From Hexactinellida sp. DTS-2022 (taxonomy: Eukaryota; Porifera; Hexactinellida): 64,000 nt of DNA. The DNA is taken from positions 1,798,001 to 1,862,000 of the forward strand of contig JAPNXP010000006.1 of assembly GCA_028753945.1 (NCBI GenBank), in the 5' to 3' direction. Both the position numbers and the translations under genes were made by a program. The notes beneath the pieces are model-generated. The model did not search any database and was not told where the DNA came from. It saw nothing but the letters and a program-made list of their open reading frames with translations. Below, in pieces: positions 3,761 to 26,720 of the stretch (positions within the stretch are counted from its first letter, which is position 1; each line of letters begins with the position of its first letter).

Positions 3761-5429
3761 CGTACAGTGGATTGTAATCGTACGAAACAGGACTATTATT
3801 AGGGGTATAGGTATAGAATGATTACGAGATGGCGGATTAGATAATGGAGTTAATAAATCTGACTCGTGTGTTGGTGAATTAGCCTGATGCCAAACTGGAG
3901 TATCAATGGGACAAATATTTACAATATTGAATTTGCTATAGATGTTTGGGTCACTTATCTCTCCCATATTGGAATCTTGAGAGTCATGGTAGGTAGGGAT
4001 CTCAGGAATGCTATCGATTTCTACAGCGGGAGGTTCTAAGATAGTCTGATGGTCTTCCACCTCTTCAACATGTGCAAGGAACCTGGAGGAGAGTTTAAAT
4101 TACACAATGTTAAAGTAAGTTAAATAATTTATTTTATTTTAAAGTGTCTCAAAAATTACTGCCTCGCATTGGGGATACAGAACCAGTTACAGGCTGTTCT
4201 CTTTAATTGTCCACTTCTGAGAGAACAGTGTGTAGAACAATTGTCCTCGCATCTAGAGGATAAGGGTCATAATTTGTATATTTCGTTTATTAAGAGCAGT
4301 AATTCGTTGGTATATTATGGAATTTTTGATTATATCCTCTTCGAAATTGTAAAATGTATAAGTTTGGTATGAGGCAGTAATTTTGAGACACCTTAGTTGC
4401 AAAAGAAATTAACTTACTGATTCATTTCTTCCTCTGTAGTTACATCTGCAGCAATCTCTTCGGGGATACCAAAGTGTTCCAATCCTTGAACAGGCTCCCT
4501 GCCGAAGAGAATTCTGTAAGGTGTATTGTTCTGTAATGTGGAGTGAGGGCTAGTATTTATAGAGTATTGGGCAACGTTAACGAACTTAACCCAGCACGGA
4601 TCATTTGTTTTACGCATAAGAGATCCTAATACCTTTTTAATTTCTCTATTAACTCGTTCAACAGAGCCTTGAGATTGGGGATGTCTTGCTTTCCCATGAA
4701 TTATCTTACAATCGGGCCATTTCTCCCAGATCATGGTGGCAAGATTAACATTCCTGAATTCCCTACCGTTATCGCTCTGTAGGATATGTGGAGGCCCGAA
4801 CAAGCAAAATATATCCAAGAGATTGTCAGTTACTTCTACAGCAGACTTGTTTCGCAATGGACGGAGGATAACAAATTTGGTCAGGTGATCTTGATAGACC
4901 ATTAAAAAATTGTAAGGGCGGTTATTTCAGGAGTGTTTTGGAAATCAATTAGATCAATTTGACCTCTTGAGGCAAAGTTTGATGATCTTATGGGTTTAGT
5001 TACCGTGCTTTTCAATTGTTTTTTACATTTTTGTAGTTGGCACTCATTGCACGAGTTCAGAAAGACTTGGATTAAATCCTTAGAAAACCCGGAATACTTT
5101 TGCTTTAGCACAGCAAATAGTCGATCTCTTCCAAAGTGTTTCCCTCCTTCTGTATGGATATTCTCCAACAAATCAAAGAGTGACTCTTTGGCTACAACTC
5201 TTAACAAGATTTGTGAGTTTGCTACAACTTCATACAGATATTTGCAGGAGTGAGACTCTTTTACTGAATATCTGTTCTTAATTCTGTAGAATCTCTGGCG
5301 GTCAGCTCCTTTATTAGATGAACAAGGTCCACAGTGAATGTTGACGATCTCTGATATCTCATCAGAGGTGATGACCGATTTCGGACATTGACTAGATTGA
5401 AGATAGTCGTTGAATTGACGTGACAACAT
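3710..5429 (-). pseudogene. KRBA2-like Ginger integrase, frameshifted
   Basis: A second integrase-type transposase, diverged from the one at 375-3287. From the ATG at 5429 the protein shows the HHCC zinc finger (HTEGGKH, then CNECQLQKC) and the first Asp in GQIDLIDF. A frameshift near 4905-4925 follows. The other frame then gives YQDHLTKF, the second Asp in QSDNGREF, and the catalytic Glu in HPQSQGSVERVNR. All catalytic residues are present. The core exon ends at a GTAAGT donor (4418). The sequence rejoins at an AG acceptor at 4082 and continues as a Pro/Ser/Ile-rich tail to 3710. The intron carries a MITE (4142-4393). The family resemblance is to vertebrate KRBA2 and Ginger2 integrases. The single break means it is probably inactive, although a sequencing indel is not excluded. 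Confidence 0.8.
4142..4393. mobile_element. Tc1/mariner-type MITE (TA target)
   Basis: Inverted termini of about 23 bp, starting AAGTGTCTCAAAAATTACTG on the left with its near-complement on the right. They are bounded by TA dinucleotides (4140-4141 and 4394-4395). It is 252 bp with no coding capacity, and lies in the intron of the KRBA2-like pseudogene. Confidence 0.85.
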
Positions 5430-6642: not shown

Positions 6643-7131
6643 CCGGGGGCACAGGGAAGACATTCCTTTATAATACACTTTTGGCTCAGTTCGCTCGCAT
6701 AGTAAATTTCCCTTGGGTTAGCTAGCAGTGGCATAGCCGCTCTCCTCCTCGCAGGAGGGTGCACTGTCCACTCTAGGTTGAAAGTTCCTATTGATATCAA
6801 TGAGTTATCTGTATATAACATTTTGAAACAGAGTGCTTTGGCACAGCTAATTAAGCGTACAAAACCTTTGGTATGGGATGAAGCGTGCATGTCAAATACT
6901 CATGTAGCTGAGTGTGTTGATCGCAGTTTGAGGGATATATGTTCCTGTGATCTCCCCTTTGGTGGAAAAGTAATGGTTTTTGGAGGCGACTTCCGTCAGA
7001 TACCCCCTGACAGTCTGTACTGATGTCAACTCAATGAATTGGAACATTCTCCCTAACTATTTACACAATCAGTTAGACACTCCTATTGAATGTGATCCGA
7101 TTTTTAATGCACATAAAGTATGCATTTTACA

Positions 7132-8182
7132 CATAGACTCCTTAAGATAAGGACTGGAACGTCGCGATCTCGGGGGTTTTTAACTTGAGTCTGAGAGGCT
7201 CCAGTTATAATAATTGAAAAAGCATTAGGTTTCCAGTTTCCAAATGTGATTTTGGAATATAAGGGTAACTTTTGGCACCCGTCAACAATTTGAGGTTTTC
7301 ACTCAAAATTTCTCACACCTCGACAAGTTATGACGTCATTGTCACATTTCGAGAACCCTGAAAATTCACTTAATCGCACATAATTCGCGCCCTCTAAGAT
7401 ATAAAACCTGAAAATTTTAATGTACGATGCGGACACGTTGGTCACACCAGATCGTCACTATGCTAACTCATTATCACATGATGACGTAATCAATAAAATT
7501 TCACATTGTTAAATTTGACTATTTAGGACTATTTACGCTTTATAATCAATGTTAGAAGTGTATAAACCATACACCAACCGCGAAGCGGTTGGTGTGTGGT
7601 TGGGTTCTGCCGAAAAGCGACCTAGCAAACGAGGCGCCCTAGTCTATATAGATATACTGTAGCATCAATATATAGATACTAGCGCGCTTCGCGGCAGAAC
7701 CCAACCACACACCAACCGCTCGCGGTTGGTGTATGGTTTATACACTTCTAACATTGATTATAAAGCGTAAATAGGCCTAAATAGTCAAATTTAACATTGT
7801 GAAATTTTAGTGATTACGTAATCATGCGATAATGAGGAAGCATATTGGCAATCTGGTGTGACCAAAGTGTCCGCATCATTAATGTGCATGTTCTATTAAA
7901 TTTTCATAATTTTATCTCTTAGAGTGCGCGAATTATGTGCGATTAAGTGACTTCAGGGTTCTCGAAATGTGGCAATGACGTCATAACTTGTCGAGGTGTG
8001 AGAAATTTTGAGTGAAAACCTCAAATTGTTGACGGGTGCCAAAAGTTCCCCTTATATTCCAAAAATCACATTTGGAAACCGGAAACCTAATGCTTTTTCA
8101 ATTATTATAACTGGAGCCTCTCAGACTCAAGTTAAAATCTCCGAGATCGCGACGTTCCAGTCCTTATCTTAAGGAGTCTATG
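7132..8182. mobile_element. 1.05-kb foldback element with 8-bp target duplication
   Basis: Two arms of roughly 500 bp are inverted complements, starting CATAGACTCCTTAAGATAAG. They are flanked by ATTTTACA on both sides (7124-7131 and 8183-8190). Each arm includes an ACCAACCGCGAAGCGGTTGG-type palindrome near the centre. There is no ORF. The 8-bp duplication fits P, hAT or MULE mobilisation. A single diverged arm of the same family is at 53058-53490. It sits inside the Helitron helicase remnant. Confidence 0.9.
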
Positions 8183-8534
8183 ATTTTACATCATAGACTT
8201 AGCCGTCTTGAAGGGAGTGAACATTTTGATTCCTTATTTTTTGCTTAGTAATGTTTCATCGCATTGATGAATATTACGTCGGCTGCTTACAGTCAGGCTC
8301 TAAGTCAGAACTAGCGTGCATCTTGATGAGTTCATAACTTATAAAATTCTTTCATACTAAGAAAATTATTTTAGTAACTTTTGATACTATGATGGATCCT
8401 CAGGGGTACATGAGGTTGGGAGCCTTGTGTAGGTGGCAGTGTACGGGACACTACATGAGTAGTCTGTAGATGATCCGGCAGTACGGCTGGTAACCTAGAT
8501 TAGCGACACTAGGTTGGCGAGAGGCGCAATACGA

Positions 8535-8584
8535 GTGGTCGAGGGTTATCCTCCTGATGAGTCCTTGTGATAGGACGAAACCAC
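8535..8584 (+). ncRNA. Hammerhead ribozyme motif, type III topology
   Basis: All core elements are present in order. Stem III strand GTGGT (8535-8539), cleavage nucleotide C8540 (a GUC site), then stem I GAGGG-TTA-TCCTC (8541-8553, with one G-U pair). The core CTGATGA follows (8554-8560), then stem II GTCC with an 8-nt loop and GGAC (8561-8576), the core GAAA (8577-8580), and CCAC (8581-8584), whose pairing with GTGGT closes stem III together with the last A of GAAA. Stem III is only 5 bp before a mismatch. By the known hammerhead consensus, cleavage is predicted between 8540 and 8541. Confidence 0.88.
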
Positions 8585-8654
8585 ACACGTAACATCCCTA
8601 TGAGATGGGGTCGGCTAGAGCGGCTAGTCTTCATACTAGTGCGTGGCCTCATCT

Positions 8655-8701
8655 CATAACATAATAACCCCGGCGTTAACGTCGGAGGTTATTATGTTAT
8701 G
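8655..8701. repeat. 47-bp near-perfect palindrome
   Basis: Arms CATAACATAATAACC (8655-8669) and its exact complement (8687-8701) enclose a centre that is itself almost self-complementary around CGTTAACG. It sits between the two ribozyme arms and is followed by a small hairpin, GTCGGCTGTGCCGAC. It would form a strong hairpin in RNA or cruciform DNA. Confidence 0.9.
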
Positions 8702-8970
8702 GTCGGCTGTGCCGACTGGACTCGCGAGCGTAGGGCTCTGAGGTCCGGTTGGTTAGTCGGGCAGTCGACACCTGTGGCGTCGGGCGCACCAGTTACGGCG
8801 CGGCTGCAGGTTGTGTGGAGGATCTTACCAGCCGGCTCGAGGAGCCTGAAGGCGTGGTAATGTGACGGATCCTCAGGGGTACATGAGGTTGGGAGCCTTG
8901 TGTAGGTGGCAGTACGGGACACTACATTAGTAGTCTCTAGCTGACCACATCTCATAGGGATGTTACGTGT

Positions 8971-9020
8971 GTGGTTTCGTCCTATCACAAGGACTCATCA
9001 GGAGGGTAACCCTCGACCAC
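8971..9020 (-). ncRNA. Second hammerhead ribozyme motif, minus strand
   Basis: Read on the minus strand: GTGGT (9020-9016), cleavage C at 9015, stem I GAGGG-TTA-CCCTC (9014-9002), CTGATGA (9001-8995), stem II GTCC/GGAC with the same 8-nt loop (8994-8979), GAAA (8978-8975), CCAC (8974-8971). Compared with the plus copy, the only change in the fold is the stem I closing pair (G-C here, G-U there), so pairing is kept. Predicted cleavage is between 9015 and 9014. Confidence 0.88.
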
Positions 9021-9168
9021 TCTTATTGCGCCTCTCGCCAACCTAGTGTCGCTAATCTAGGTTACCAGCCGTACTGCCGGATCATCTACAGACTACTCAT
9101 GTAGTGTCCCGTACACTGCCACCTACACAAGGCTCCCAACCTCATGTACCCCTGAGGATCCGTCACAA

Positions 9169-9547
9169 TACTCATCATTTTTGCGACGTCTATCATTTCA
9201 ATCCATTTTACAACAGGTAGCTCTAAGGAATCTTGCTGTGCGACACTTTCAGATATTGTATGATAGTGGCGCCTCAGGTGAGACGTTTAGGTAAGAATGG
9301 CTGACCGTACTACTGAAGTAGTGCTAACATGACTTCCTATTTCTGGCTCCCAGTGCTGACACCTTCATAATGATAGTACACTATAATGATGATGGTGGCG
9401 CCTTATGATTCTATTTTAAGCTACTTTGTTTCAAATTGGCAAATGAATTGAGACGCTATTAACCATATTGAATACTAAACACATGTGTCATAAAGAATAA
9501 TATCTTTCATCTACTATTTTCTCGATGAGAGGAGGTTTCTTGGAATA
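9169..9547. other. No gene seen
   Basis: AT-rich DNA downstream of the ribozyme element. It has scattered short GGCGCC-containing segments (about 9268 and 9398). No ORF, terminal repeat or RNA motif could be supported. Confidence 0.3.
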
Positions 9548-23272: not shown

Positions 23273-26200
23273 CATAGCCTACTCTATATAAGGCCTGACT
23301 ACTACTTTAAATTTCGGCACCAGGGATGCACTAGTAGATGGGAGATAAAAATTAACCATAACTTTTATTTTTATTAGTTTTGATAATAATCAACCATCAG
23401 GTTTAAATATTGTTTCGTTACCACCTATTGACTTTGATATTTTATTTAACTAAGTAGCTTATTTTCTCAAAATGCCGAACAGTTGTTCAGCACCCGGGTG
23501 CAAAAGTAATTATTCTAAAGAGGAACATATTCCCACTTTCAAGATGCCTGAAAATCCTCCAGACTTGAGACATGCATGGATACGAGCTCTTCACAGAGAA
23601 GATATTGGTCATCTGAAGGCAGTGTATGTGTGTTTGAAGCATTTTCACGAGGAGGATATCTTGTCTACCCACAAAGTTCCAAGCGGAGACGGAACATTCA
23701 CAGAAATTCCCCGCGCCAGGCCAATGCTCAGAGAAGGTGCCATTCCTAGTTTACTACCTGGGTGCCCATCTTACTATTCTAGTTCCAGTTCTAAGAGAAC
23801 TCGTCTGTCATTCGACTCAAAAGAGGAAGATTTCATAAACCAGGCTCTGCATCTTAGCTTACAGTCTGAAGAAGAAGAGAAAGAGAAGTATAATGTCAGA
23901 ACGATACATGATCTAAAGGATAAGTTGAATTTAATTTCTATACCTGTTAATTGGTCTATATTATCTCCCAACGACCATTGTGTTAACTTTGTCCACATTG
24001 AAATTGTCAATCATACTGTTTCTGCCAACATGTATCTAAATATTGACTCGAGTTTAAACACAGCTGCCTTTGTATATGGCAAAAATATTTCATTGTCACT
24101 TCACAGCATAAATGATATTCGACAAGTTGAAACAGTTTTGTGTGAAATTGCTCTTATATTTACACACAAGGGAAGTGATTCCAAACGTTCATTTCATCTA
24201 ACCCGATCTAAAGAGCATATTCAAGAAATAATGAATGATTTGTCATTAGTTAGCAATTGCGACGACAGTACAAGTACGAAGTTTCTCGATCTAGGTCGAC
24301 TTCAATTTATTATGTGTCAGCTTGAGAATTGTTTTATTCCCAAAACAAGACGTAGATACAATGTAATTACACAAATTATTGCGTTAAAAACTCATCTAAT
24401 TTCACCTTCTTGTTATAACTACCTCCAAAGTTTAGACTATATATCTCTTCCACATTACCACACTTTAGAAAAACTTTATTCTTCATTTGGCCTTGAAAAT
24501 GAATTCACTAGTTATCTTATTCAGGCTACATCCTTTTTTTCTCAAGAACAAAAAAATGTAATAATTCAAATGGATGAAATACATATAAAATCTGATATTT
24601 CTTACAAGGGTGGTAGGATTTTTGCCTCAAATTTAACCCCGGAAGATCCGACAAAGACTGTTTTTGCGATAATGGTTTCAAGTTTGCATAAAAAATGGTC
24701 TAGCATCGTTCGTTTACTTCCGTGTGGATCAATAACTGCTGGAAGAATATTCCCAATTATTAAATCCTGCATTTTAGATCTTGAAAATTGTGGTTTACGG
24801 GTGCAAGTTATTTCAACAGACAATTACCCTTTAAACGTGAATATTTTTAAACTTTTTTCACCCAATGGCAAGTTAGAAACACAAGTTCCACACCCATATG
24901 ATGAAGACAGGAAACTTTTCCTCACTTTTGACTTCGTACACATACTTAAAAGTATTCGTAACAACTGGCTTAATCAGAAAAATTATAACAAAACGTTTGA
25001 ATTCCCCGACCTAGGAAATTTTAAAGTTGATTGTTGTAGTTTTCCACTTTCACTTTGTTCAGCATCTATTGAGGATGTACGACTTCTTTATAATTCTGAG
25101 CGCGAGAGTTTAGCTAAACTTGCTCCTCATTTGACGGTAAAATCATGTTATCCTTCAAGCATTGAACGTCAAAATGTGAAATTAGTTTTAAAGGTCATCA
25201 ACGAACTGACATGTGCTGGATTAAAAGTACAGAATGAACAGCGTGATCAACAATACCAAAATTGTACATCAGAATTTGTGAGTATTATTCTTAGTGTCTG
25301 GAAAATATTTAATGTAAATACACCATATAAGGACATCCGTTTGAACGATGATTTATGTCGACCTTTGACTTATAATGACGATCGATTTGCTTTTCTAACT
25401 AAAATTGTCTTTTGGCTGGATGCTTGGCAGGCTTTGGCCCCCAAAGTTGGGAAATTAACCAAACAGACTTTTACTAGCTTTAGGCATGCGTGTATTGCTT
25501 TACAAGAGATTACTAACTATCTAACTGGCTGTTGTGATTTTGATTACTTATTGACTTCATTTTTACAAACAGATCCATTAGAACATCACTTTGGACTTTA
25601 CCGAATGATGTCTGGCTCTAATTATCATATTTCCTACCTGCAAATTCTTGAGACTGAACGCCGGATTAAGGTTTCTAGTATCTTAAGTATGTTCTCAAGC
25701 CAACATCTATCTAGCCAACAATCAATTCACACCTTTATCCAGTCATTTTCATCTCCAAGCGATAATAACAACGATCAGTTCTGCTTGGAGCCATTCTTAA
25801 ATGGCATTCCCGATCTCTCAACCATACATTGTAGTAATCAAGTTATCCAATCTCTATCCTTTATTGCTGGTTATTCCACGCATCAGTACCTTAAACGATC
25901 TCAAAACTGTGATATTTGTTTGAATTTTCTAACAATTGATAAGACATTACTCATCGATGGTCTCTCTCAATCAGATTTTAAACTTTTAGAGTTAACTGAC
26001 CGTGGTTCTCTTAAATATCCTTCTGAGCCTGTCTTCGAGTCTATTCTTACTCTTTGGAAGTTATTTTCTGCTATCGAAAATGATCGTCAGTTAATGACAA
26101 TACTTGTTGATGGGCCAGCTAGGAATATCTTGGTTGAGCTTGCTATAATTTACACAGAGGATAGTTGTGATTCTGATGTGTGGATATCTAGTTGTCCTAA

Positions 26201-26720
26201 ATGTAGGATTCTTAAACATAATATTCTACGGAAACTTGTATTTGTTGCGGCTAACTGTTTCATTGCGAATAAGGTCAAGAACTATAATTCTATGGTCATT
26301 ACTAAAAATTGTGAGAAACGTAAATTGAAAAAGTTTAACCAATAATTCTTCCTGTTTAAAAAGATTACCTCAATTTGTAGTAACCATTATTTATGTTAAT
26401 CTCTATTTTTTATTTAATTTTATGTGTTAGTTTAGAATTCGGCAGTATGGTGACAGTCTAAGAAATGTTTCAACTACTTTCTGATGTTTTGTCAGTATTC
26501 TTATAATTGTCTTTTGTATGTAATGTTTATTATATAGTTGATAAAGAATGTTATTAAAACATATATCAGTTACTTGTGACATTATTTACTATATTTCAAC
26601 TTCAGAACAGGAAAATCTTGGAATATTTAACTACTAGTAATATTAGTATAATTGAAGACAAGCCATCTACTAACGCATCCATGGTTCGTTAGTAGTCAGG
26701 CCTTATATAGAGTAGGCTAT
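23273..26720 (+). mobile_element. P-type transposon, apparently complete
   Basis: Perfect 32-bp terminal inverted repeats, left 23273-23304 (CATAGCCTACTCTATATAAG...) and right 26690-26721. They are flanked by GCATGAAC on both sides (23265-23272 and 26721-26728), the 8-bp duplication expected of P elements. The right copy's first G is shared with the repeat. Inside is one uninterrupted 957-codon transposase gene with about 170 bp of leader and 340 bp of trailer. It is inserted in DNA with reiterated ggacaaattcc phrases. Perfect termini, a clean duplication and an open frame point to recent transposition. Confidence 0.93.
23472..26345 (+). CDS. P-element/THAP9-type transposase, intact
   Basis: 957 codons without introns. 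The N-terminus is a C2CH THAP DNA-binding finger: C5, C10, W36, C54, H57 and the closing IPSLLP near residue 91. A charged linker with acidic coiled-coil character follows (about 115-155). The RNase H-like core has the first Asp at D368 (QMDEIH) and the second at D450 (STDNYP). A GTP-binding-type insertion begins at FDFVHILKSIRNNW. The last acidic residue is E704 in the conserved TDPLEHHFGLYRMMSG. A C-terminal region with CxxC pairs (CDICL, CPKC) may bind zinc. By family knowledge the protein binds the element's terminal repeats and cuts the DNA, with GTP as cofactor in the Drosophila enzyme. There are no stops or frameshifts. A decayed relative lies at 38730-41187. Confidence 0.95.
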   Translation: MPNSCSAPGCKSNYSKEEHIPTFKMPENPPDLRHAWIRALHREDIGHLKAVYVCLKHFHEEDILSTHKVPSGDGTFTEIPRARPMLREGAIPSLLPGCPSYYSSSSSKRTRLSFDSKEEDFINQALHLSLQSEEEEKEKYNVRTIHDLKDKLNLISIPVNWSILSPNDHCVNFVHIEIVNHTVSANMYLNIDSSLNTAAFVYGKNISLSLHSINDIRQVETVLCEIALIFTHKGSDSKRSFHLTRSKEHIQEIMNDLSLVSNCDDSTSTKFLDLGRLQFIMCQLENCFIPKTRRRYNVITQIIALKTHLISPSCYNYLQSLDYISLPHYHTLEKLYSSFGLENEFTSYLIQATSFFSQEQKNVIIQMDEIHIKSDISYKGGRIFASNLTPEDPTKTVFAIMVSSLHKKWSSIVRLLPCGSITAGRIFPIIKSCILDLENCGLRVQVISTDNYPLNVNIFKLFSPNGKLETQVPHPYDEDRKLFLTFDFVHILKSIRNNWLNQKNYNKTFEFPDLGNFKVDCCSFPLSLCSASIEDVRLLYNSERESLAKLAPHLTVKSCYPSSIERQNVKLVLKVINELTCAGLKVQNEQRDQQYQNCTSEFVSIILSVWKIFNVNTPYKDIRLNDDLCRPLTYNDDRFAFLTKIVFWLDAWQALAPKVGKLTKQTFTSFRHACIALQEITNYLTGCCDFDYLLTSFLQTDPLEHHFGLYRMMSGSNYHISYLQILETERRIKVSSILSMFSSQHLSSQQSIHTFIQSFSSPSDNNNDQFCLEPFLNGIPDLSTIHCSNQVIQSLSFIAGYSTHQYLKRSQNCDICLNFLTIDKTLLIDGLSQSDFKLLELTDRGSLKYPSEPVFESILTLWKLFSAIENDRQLMTILVDGPARNILVELAIIYTEDSCDSDVWISSCPKCRILKHNILRKLVFVAANCFIANKVKNYNSMVITKNCEKRKLKKFNQ

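Follow-up and report, generated by a model that had tools for sequence, protein, structure and literature searches.

Retrozymes fall, in the portions of the literature available, into plant LTR elements with type III hammerhead ribozymes and animal non-LTR elements with type I hammerheads (PMC7229834, PMC7761336, PMC4918200). Here we compare with these an element from the genome of a glass sponge. It has in common with plant LTR retrozymes, as the latter appear in the available text, a type III hammerhead in each LTR and 4-bp duplications (Cervera et al. 2016, PMC4918200; PMC7761336), together with a non-coding and GC-rich sequence, a purine tract, a circle-sized unit, and both solo and multimeric copies; mobilization by Ty3 elements has been proposed for the plant elements (PMC4918200). 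The host here is an animal, however, the unit measures 473–486 nt rather than 600–1000 bp, a covarying hairpin takes the place of the tRNA-Met primer site, and mirror-image copies are common among the insertions inspected, in contrast to the plant elements as covered by the accessible sections of that report (PMC4918200). Metazoan non-LTR retrozymes are likewise non-coding hammerhead retroelements of animals with a unit of a few hundred nucleotides, but they are described, in the excerpts available, as tandem repeats with type I hammerheads, longer duplications and low GC, and with neither LTR nor purine tract (PMC7229834).

Self-priming Ty3 elements of the Tf1/sushi type resemble the system proposed here in that no tRNA is involved and the primer comes from the element's own RNA, and three Ty3-like elements of the same genome share their layout, as given in the available part of the source (PMC7175516). 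The Tf1 primer is the 5' end of its mRNA, whereas the strand proposed here would lie just 3' of the primer site (PMC7175516, in part), a position suited to a circle, which lacks a 5' end. Fungal GalEa Copia elements, through their Conserved Hairpin Site (PMC5445492), and bivalve TRIMs (PMC6934838) likewise have a hairpin where the internal region begins and show no recognizable tRNA primer site. Those hairpins differ in having short arms of 9–10 nt and in belonging to Copia or unassigned elements; the available text of both reports mentions no hammerhead and describes no turned-back products, and it treats the function of the hairpin as unproven in both groups (PMC5445492, PMC6934838). Our search of open-access full-text literature, sponge (Porifera) hammerhead elements included, found no animal LTR retrozyme.

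Anatomy of the element

The element lies in a stretch of 64,000 nt, referred to below as the window, and its parts are listed in Table 1. The ends of its LTRs were set by repeat spacing and by solo copies with 4-bp duplications. The original prediction had placed the limits of the element at 8390–9168; the LTR ends and the ATAC duplication give 8388–9167, a shift of one or two bases. Its description of a compact, GC-rich element agrees with a GC content of 0.54 versus 0.38 in the measured flank (7000–8380). The turn-back of this copy falls within LTR 2, in a 10-nt stretch common to LTR 2 and the inverted LTR; U3 stands at both outer ends.

Table 1. Features of the element and its two hammerhead ribozymes, in window coordinates
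Feature	Position	Strand	Details
Left target-site duplication ATAC	8384–8387		Identical to 9168–9171
LTR 1, 274 bp	8388–8661	+	Starts TATGATGG (probably a drifted TGTGACGG), ends ...CTCATAACA
Type III hammerhead ribozyme	8533–8586	+	Full-length RF00008 match, 55.7 bits, E 1.2e-9; predicted cleavage 8540/8541
Primer-site hairpin	8655–8701	+	Final 7 LTR bases and those that follow pair with GGTTATTATGTTATG; fold, covariation over 10 loci
Internal region between LTR 1 and LTR 2, 199 bp	8662–8860	+	No coding frame seen
Second small hairpin GTCGGCtgtGCCGAC	8702–8716	+	Fold; immediately behind the primer-site hairpin
Purine-rich stretch before LTR 2	8841–8860	+	Weak polypurine tract, from sequence; clearer in L064 and L082
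LTR 2 start (TGTGACGG...), 84 bp, then broken off	8861–8944	+	Direct repeat of LTR 1
Inverted LTR, LTR positions 233 to 1	8935–9167	-	Alignment to reverse complement
Type III hammerhead ribozyme, second copy	8969–9022	-	Full-length RF00008 match, 59.1 bits, E 1.4e-10; predicted cleavage 9015/9014
Right target-site duplication ATAC	9168–9171		Identical to 8384–8387

The unit measures 473 nt in the window copy and 486 nt in L064. When the window unit was folded as a circle (with 475 nt, the boundary having later been set at 473), the paired fraction was 0.74 and the minimum free energy -201.9, whereas 30 mononucleotide shuffles averaged -167.3. A GC-rich, strongly self-paired unit of circle size would also be expected if an infectious, viroid-like circular RNA had become integrated. 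The LTR ends, purine tract and 4-bp duplications, however, mark the copies as insertions made by an integrase, and many diverged subfamilies of the family occur within this one genome, so that we regard a viroid-like origin as extremely unlikely. Exact matches to a 28-nt hammerhead pattern were absent from IMG/VR.

Type III hammerhead ribozymes

The original prediction was of one complete type III hammerhead on each strand, and both were recovered as full-length matches to RF00008 (Hammerhead_3) above its gathering score of 48.5, with the cleavage sites at the same positions in the Rfam alignment as those proposed. At the gathering threshold both are of type III and neither is of type I, and no other Rfam family was matched at that threshold in the whole 64 kb. 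Type III had rightly been called unusual for an animal, type I being typical there in the available text (PMC7229834, PMC7761336). The type I model RF00163 had no matches in the genome, and none in the control genomes either.

The inverted arms described in the original prediction are 97% complementary, as measured over 8385–8620 and 8935–9170, and the hammerheads within them therefore represent one motif copied in inverted order. The predicted pair stands as far as completeness is concerned but is not a pair of independent ribozymes: the second belongs to a copy of the first LTR in reverse complement, and the two are one ribozyme present twice as a by-product of the inverted duplication of one LTR. 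In a read-through transcript, mutual masking of both predicted ribozymes is plausible, judging from the pairing of the arms.

A genome search gave 12,319 first-look candidates, and 64 of the 68 scored exceeded the RF00008 cut-off. Lack of conservation of the core relative to its surroundings had been named beforehand as evidence against the ribozymes; among 52 distinct 54-mers we found a majority identity of 0.90 within the hammerhead, versus 0.37, 0.48, 0.63 and 0.51 in four 30-nt flank blocks, values that are depressed by alignment of the blocks without gaps. Fourteen core positions (one of them two-way) were fixed by the search pattern and are thus conserved through the selection of sequences, but the 17 nt GGTCGAGGGTTACCCTC lie outside the pattern and reach at least 0.92 at every position. 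From position 3 inward, the stem pairs are formed in 48–52 of the 52 hammerheads. Pairing was maintained through changes on both sides in stem II (third pair, CG to UA) and likewise in stem III (UA to GC). Of the stem III pairs in the Rfam model, the outermost two are formed in just 14 and 23 of the 52, and stem III is therefore in effect five pairs long.

Type III hammerheads with otherwise little in common with the window element were present at L030:1013, L035, L038, L042, L044, L055, L057:134 (-) and L072; several diverged retrozyme families apparently coexist in this genome. An additional hammerhead-like core with a different stem II (GGCC...GGCC) was observed at L004:2504–2530 (+), approximately 1 kb from a copy of the family, and no LTR end of the window-element family was recognized after it; this core perhaps represents another retrozyme family.

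A dispersed family of LTR retrozymes

The genome comprises 112.4 Mb in 18 contigs and contains seven matches to Ets-domain exons (best, 127.8 bits) and 16 to homeodomains (best, 81.9 bits); a Wnt search gave no matches in the genome or in the controls. The Ets domain is specific to animals, and the Ets and homeodomain matches, like a THAP-domain protein encoded in the window, are what an animal host would show. The family occupies at least 103 sites when the searches with the window element, RF00008 and L082 are merged at 1.5 kb, a count in which not every site was checked for a hammerhead. The window element as query matched at least 58 stretches (40 of 327 candidates scored), and the related copy L082 at least 54 (40 of 873 scored).

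Many of the fetched copies are single LTRs with one ribozyme. In a young subfamily (L027–L030, L057, L061, L069), a 325-bp unit TGTGACG...CATAACA is present in seven copies, each framed by an exact 4-bp repeat (TTAT, TTAG, ATTA, GCAT, AGTA, CTAT and GTAC); in L062, of the same subfamily, the predicted LTR start has no exact 4-bp repeat. Such a duplication is present at that position in 13 of the 59 copies with a recognized LTR end (L019, L021, L027–L030, L046, L047, L056, L057, L061, L069 and L074), the other 46 including old, truncated, mirror-image and misparsed copies, with L076–L080 among the misparsed ones. Matches of 4 bp that occurred only at other starts in L004, L005, L018 and L024 were put down to chance. 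The arrangement LTR–internal region–LTR is seen in L064 and L024, and in L082 with a truncated second LTR; the polypurine tract before the second LTR reads AAAGGGAAGGTGA in L064 and GCGGGAGTGA in L082 and is weak in the window copy.

Because of the solo LTRs with TGT...ACA ends, the 4-bp duplications and the LTR–internal–LTR copies, the family is, by its sequence organization, a non-coding, non-autonomous LTR retroelement, that is, an LTR retrozyme, and its closest kind is therefore the plant LTR retrozyme. In keeping with that class, a type III hammerhead lies inside the LTR, and LTRs and 4-bp duplications accompany a non-coding internal region; the absence of LTRs and the duplications longer than 4 bp that characterize non-LTR retrozymes were not found. 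Palindromes framed by 4-bp duplications (the window copy, L007, L048, L064 and L071) could also be read as foldback or MITE-like DNA transposons in which the palindrome is the true element, the arms are terminal inverted repeats and the hammerheads are there by chance. We consider this very unlikely, given that many copies are single LTRs with 4-bp duplications and with differing U3 and U5 ends, not copies bounded by inverted repeats, and that direct LTR–internal–LTR copies with a purine tract exist.

Internal regions used as queries each returned five places, mostly known copies, and no coding partner. L076–L080 (C1, 13.0–13.9 Mb) were considered as an autonomous carrier on the strength of 1–2 kb of similarity and of short frames in L078, one motif of which resembles a zinc knuckle when inspected by eye. 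The carrier reading was dropped on inspection by eye, the hammerhead LTR there being a solo LTR with CATG on either side within a larger repeat; apparently, one solo hammerhead LTR has been multiplied inside that repeat.

Hairpin at the primer-binding position

The 3' end of the LTR and the next ~8 nt pair with a downstream arm, at the place where plant retrozymes have their tRNA primer site. In 16 of the 59 copies, which derive from 11 insertions, the final 7 LTR bases have their reverse complement within 90 nt. The 43 copies lacking it appear for the most part to be single LTRs that run into host DNA; in L070 and behind one LTR of L009, element sequence is retained with no exact complement of the LTR end. 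The LTR ends CATAACA, CATGACA, CGTAACA and CATCACA are each matched by their own complement.

Over ten loci (the window, L003, L007, L009, L024, L025, L048, L064, L071 and L082; L004, with a nested hairpin, was left out), 99.3% of the 15 pairs are formed and eight show changes on both sides. None of 500 shuffles gave covariation as high, and slid structures scored far lower. Pairing of the outer seven is built in, since exact complementarity to the final 7 LTR bases was the criterion by which the 3' arm was picked; the free test is provided by the inner eight pairs, six of which show both-side changes, with one unpaired cell of 80. Four of the hairpins (L007, L025, L048, L071) are in mirror-image copies, where copy-back itself could have perfected the pairing. 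The other six (the window, L003, L009, L024, L064, L082) are followed by internal sequence and are not turned back at that point. In L003, L009, L024, L064 (represented by the repeat that runs on into internal sequence) and L082, pairing reaches no more than a single pair past base seven of the LTR end. The second small hairpin stands directly behind the first in four of these six copies, with GTCGGCtgtGCCGAC present also in L009 and other letters in L024 and L082; as such it was not found in L003 or L064. A 7-nt pairing between the cleaved 5' end and the post-LTR bases of the window copy was within the shuffle range and was not kept in L064.

A primer site complementary to a tRNA typically begins with TGG. 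Judged by sequence, no tRNA-Met primer-binding site follows the 5' LTR, hairpin sequence being found instead, and in none of the 11 hairpin-bearing insertions does the post-LTR sequence begin like such a complement. This finding argues against a reading in which a tRNA or some other RNA primes the LTR retrozyme, packaging or dimerization is the function of the hairpin, and the palindromes arise when the reverse transcriptase switches template at any snap-back, as does the fact that the post-LTR sequence changes together with the 3' arm. The unproven role of the primer-site hairpins of fungal GalEa Copia elements, in the available text of that report, lends this reading some weight (PMC5445492).

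Mirror-image insertions

We inspected 12 insertions that retain at least the hairpin, or else further internal sequence (the window, L003, L004, L007, L009/L015, L024, L025, L048, L064, L070, L071 and L082), a sample of fetched loci that does not give a genome-wide rate. L005 had been a candidate for a copy keeping internal sequence and was rejected, its post-LTR bases failing to match any of five internal regions. An inverted LTR follows in nine of the 12 (the window, L004, L007, L009/L015, L025, L048, L064, L070 and L071), and in six of these nine it begins directly at the end of the hairpin (L004, L007, L025, L048, L064 and L071). In L004 it comes after the outer arm of the nested hairpin, the left side being truncated, and L025 retains ~15 nt of it and no right end. 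In L064, the same hairpin arm leads into internal sequence in one repeat and into the inverted LTR in the next.

The turn-back lies away from the hairpin in the window copy, L009/L015 and L070. The flanks of L009/L015 are unequal (L015 has no matching repeat) and its LTRs belong to two subfamilies, and it may therefore be a rearranged or double insertion. L070 skips part of U5, with a flank repeat of 3 of 4 at best. The turn-back of the window copy at a 10-nt common stretch implies that other template switches occur too, and this turn-back and the skipped U5 part of L070 speak for priming by a tRNA or other RNA with template switching at any snap-back. The turn-back of six of the nine copies exactly at the hairpin end speaks against it, and on balance we judge that explanation rather unlikely. 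Frequent turn-back at this point is what copy-back from a hairpin primer would give; the mirror-image copies suggest that the element starts its own copying from a built-in hairpin, with no borrowed tRNA.

An exact 4-bp duplication surrounds the whole palindrome in five of the nine mirror-image copies: ATAC in the window copy and in L007, CGTA in L048, CTAT in L064 and TGAA in L071. Self-complementarity is 99.2% over 494 nt in L048 and 93.9% over 553 aligned nt (gapped) in L007. Fold-back artefacts exist in long-read data, and the palindromes might in principle be artefacts of assembly or sequencing from such reads. The arms, however, differ by approximately 2% in the window copy, 0.8% in L048 and 6% in L007, and the five exact duplications framing palindromes likewise tell against an artefact, for which we see scarcely any probability.

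Ty3-like elements in the same genome

Three elements, L084, L085 and L086, were taken from 150 scored integrase matches for their long frames (1407–1499 aa), not for relatedness. They have 4-bp duplications (ATAG, ATAC and AAAG), LTRs bounded by TGT...ACA and 149–184 bp long, and a tract whose last bases are GGAGGAGA, GGAGTGA or GATAGTGA. Searches with 300-residue pieces revealed H2C2 and integrase core domains, or RNase H and H2C2 domains. Starting 1–2 nt past the LTR, the bases are exactly complementary to LTR-internal stretches of 12, 14 and 13 nt, a result matched by none of 500 shuffles for each element. This is a predicted Tf1-like self-priming layout. In the four retrozyme copies tested, no primer site of the Tf1 type was found: the longest match to an LTR-internal stretch was 5–7 nt, within the shuffle range, and the hairpin was present instead. 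Conversely, L084–L086 lack the hairpin, no downstream complement of the LTR's own end being found in them; they represent the type of element to which the autonomous partner of the retrozyme family may belong. Broken integrase pieces of an LTR retroelement, with weak PF00665 and PF17921 matches below the Pfam cut-offs, lie in the window at 4414–5429 (-), ~3 kb from the element; kinship to the element is not implied.

Proposed mechanism

Starting from the observed anatomy, conservation, covariation and insertion products, we consider it probable that the window element is an insertion of an animal LTR retrozyme family that would form circles with its predicted ribozymes and prime reverse transcription in cis from the hairpin. 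A transcript through two LTRs would be cut by the hammerheads into an RNA of ~473–486 nt, which would be closed to a circle. The hairpin would be nicked after its 3' arm, much as a Tf1-type RNase H nicks its own RNA primer, and the 3' arm would then prime the minus strand, with a Ty3-type reverse transcriptase as the putative enzyme and the purine-rich tract as the putative plus-strand start. Were the primer left attached, the plus strand would run round the hairpin to yield a mirror-image cDNA with two U3 ends, which integrase would insert; the window copy may be such a product with another turn-back point, at the 10-nt stretch inside LTR 2. Since a circle has no 5' end, Tf1 priming as such cannot work on it, and the corresponding solution would be to have a hairpin on the opposite side of the primer site. 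We put forward more tentatively, and lean slightly against, a further version in which the hammerhead circle is primed by a snap-back start at the hairpin and the mirror-image two-U3 cDNA is a regular, integration-competent product rather than a rare error.

An animal LTR retrozyme that carries type III hammerheads breaks the division between plant LTR and animal non-LTR elements. The mirror-image copies in the genome are candidate fossils of the priming step, and this makes two questions directly testable: how self-priming machinery could prime a circle without a 5' end, and what purpose is served by a primer-site hairpin, which the available text of the fungal GalEa report leaves open (PMC5445492).

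Elsewhere in the window, a frame of 957 aa at 23472–26345 (+) has THAP and TNP-like RNase H domains, as in a P-element-like transposase.
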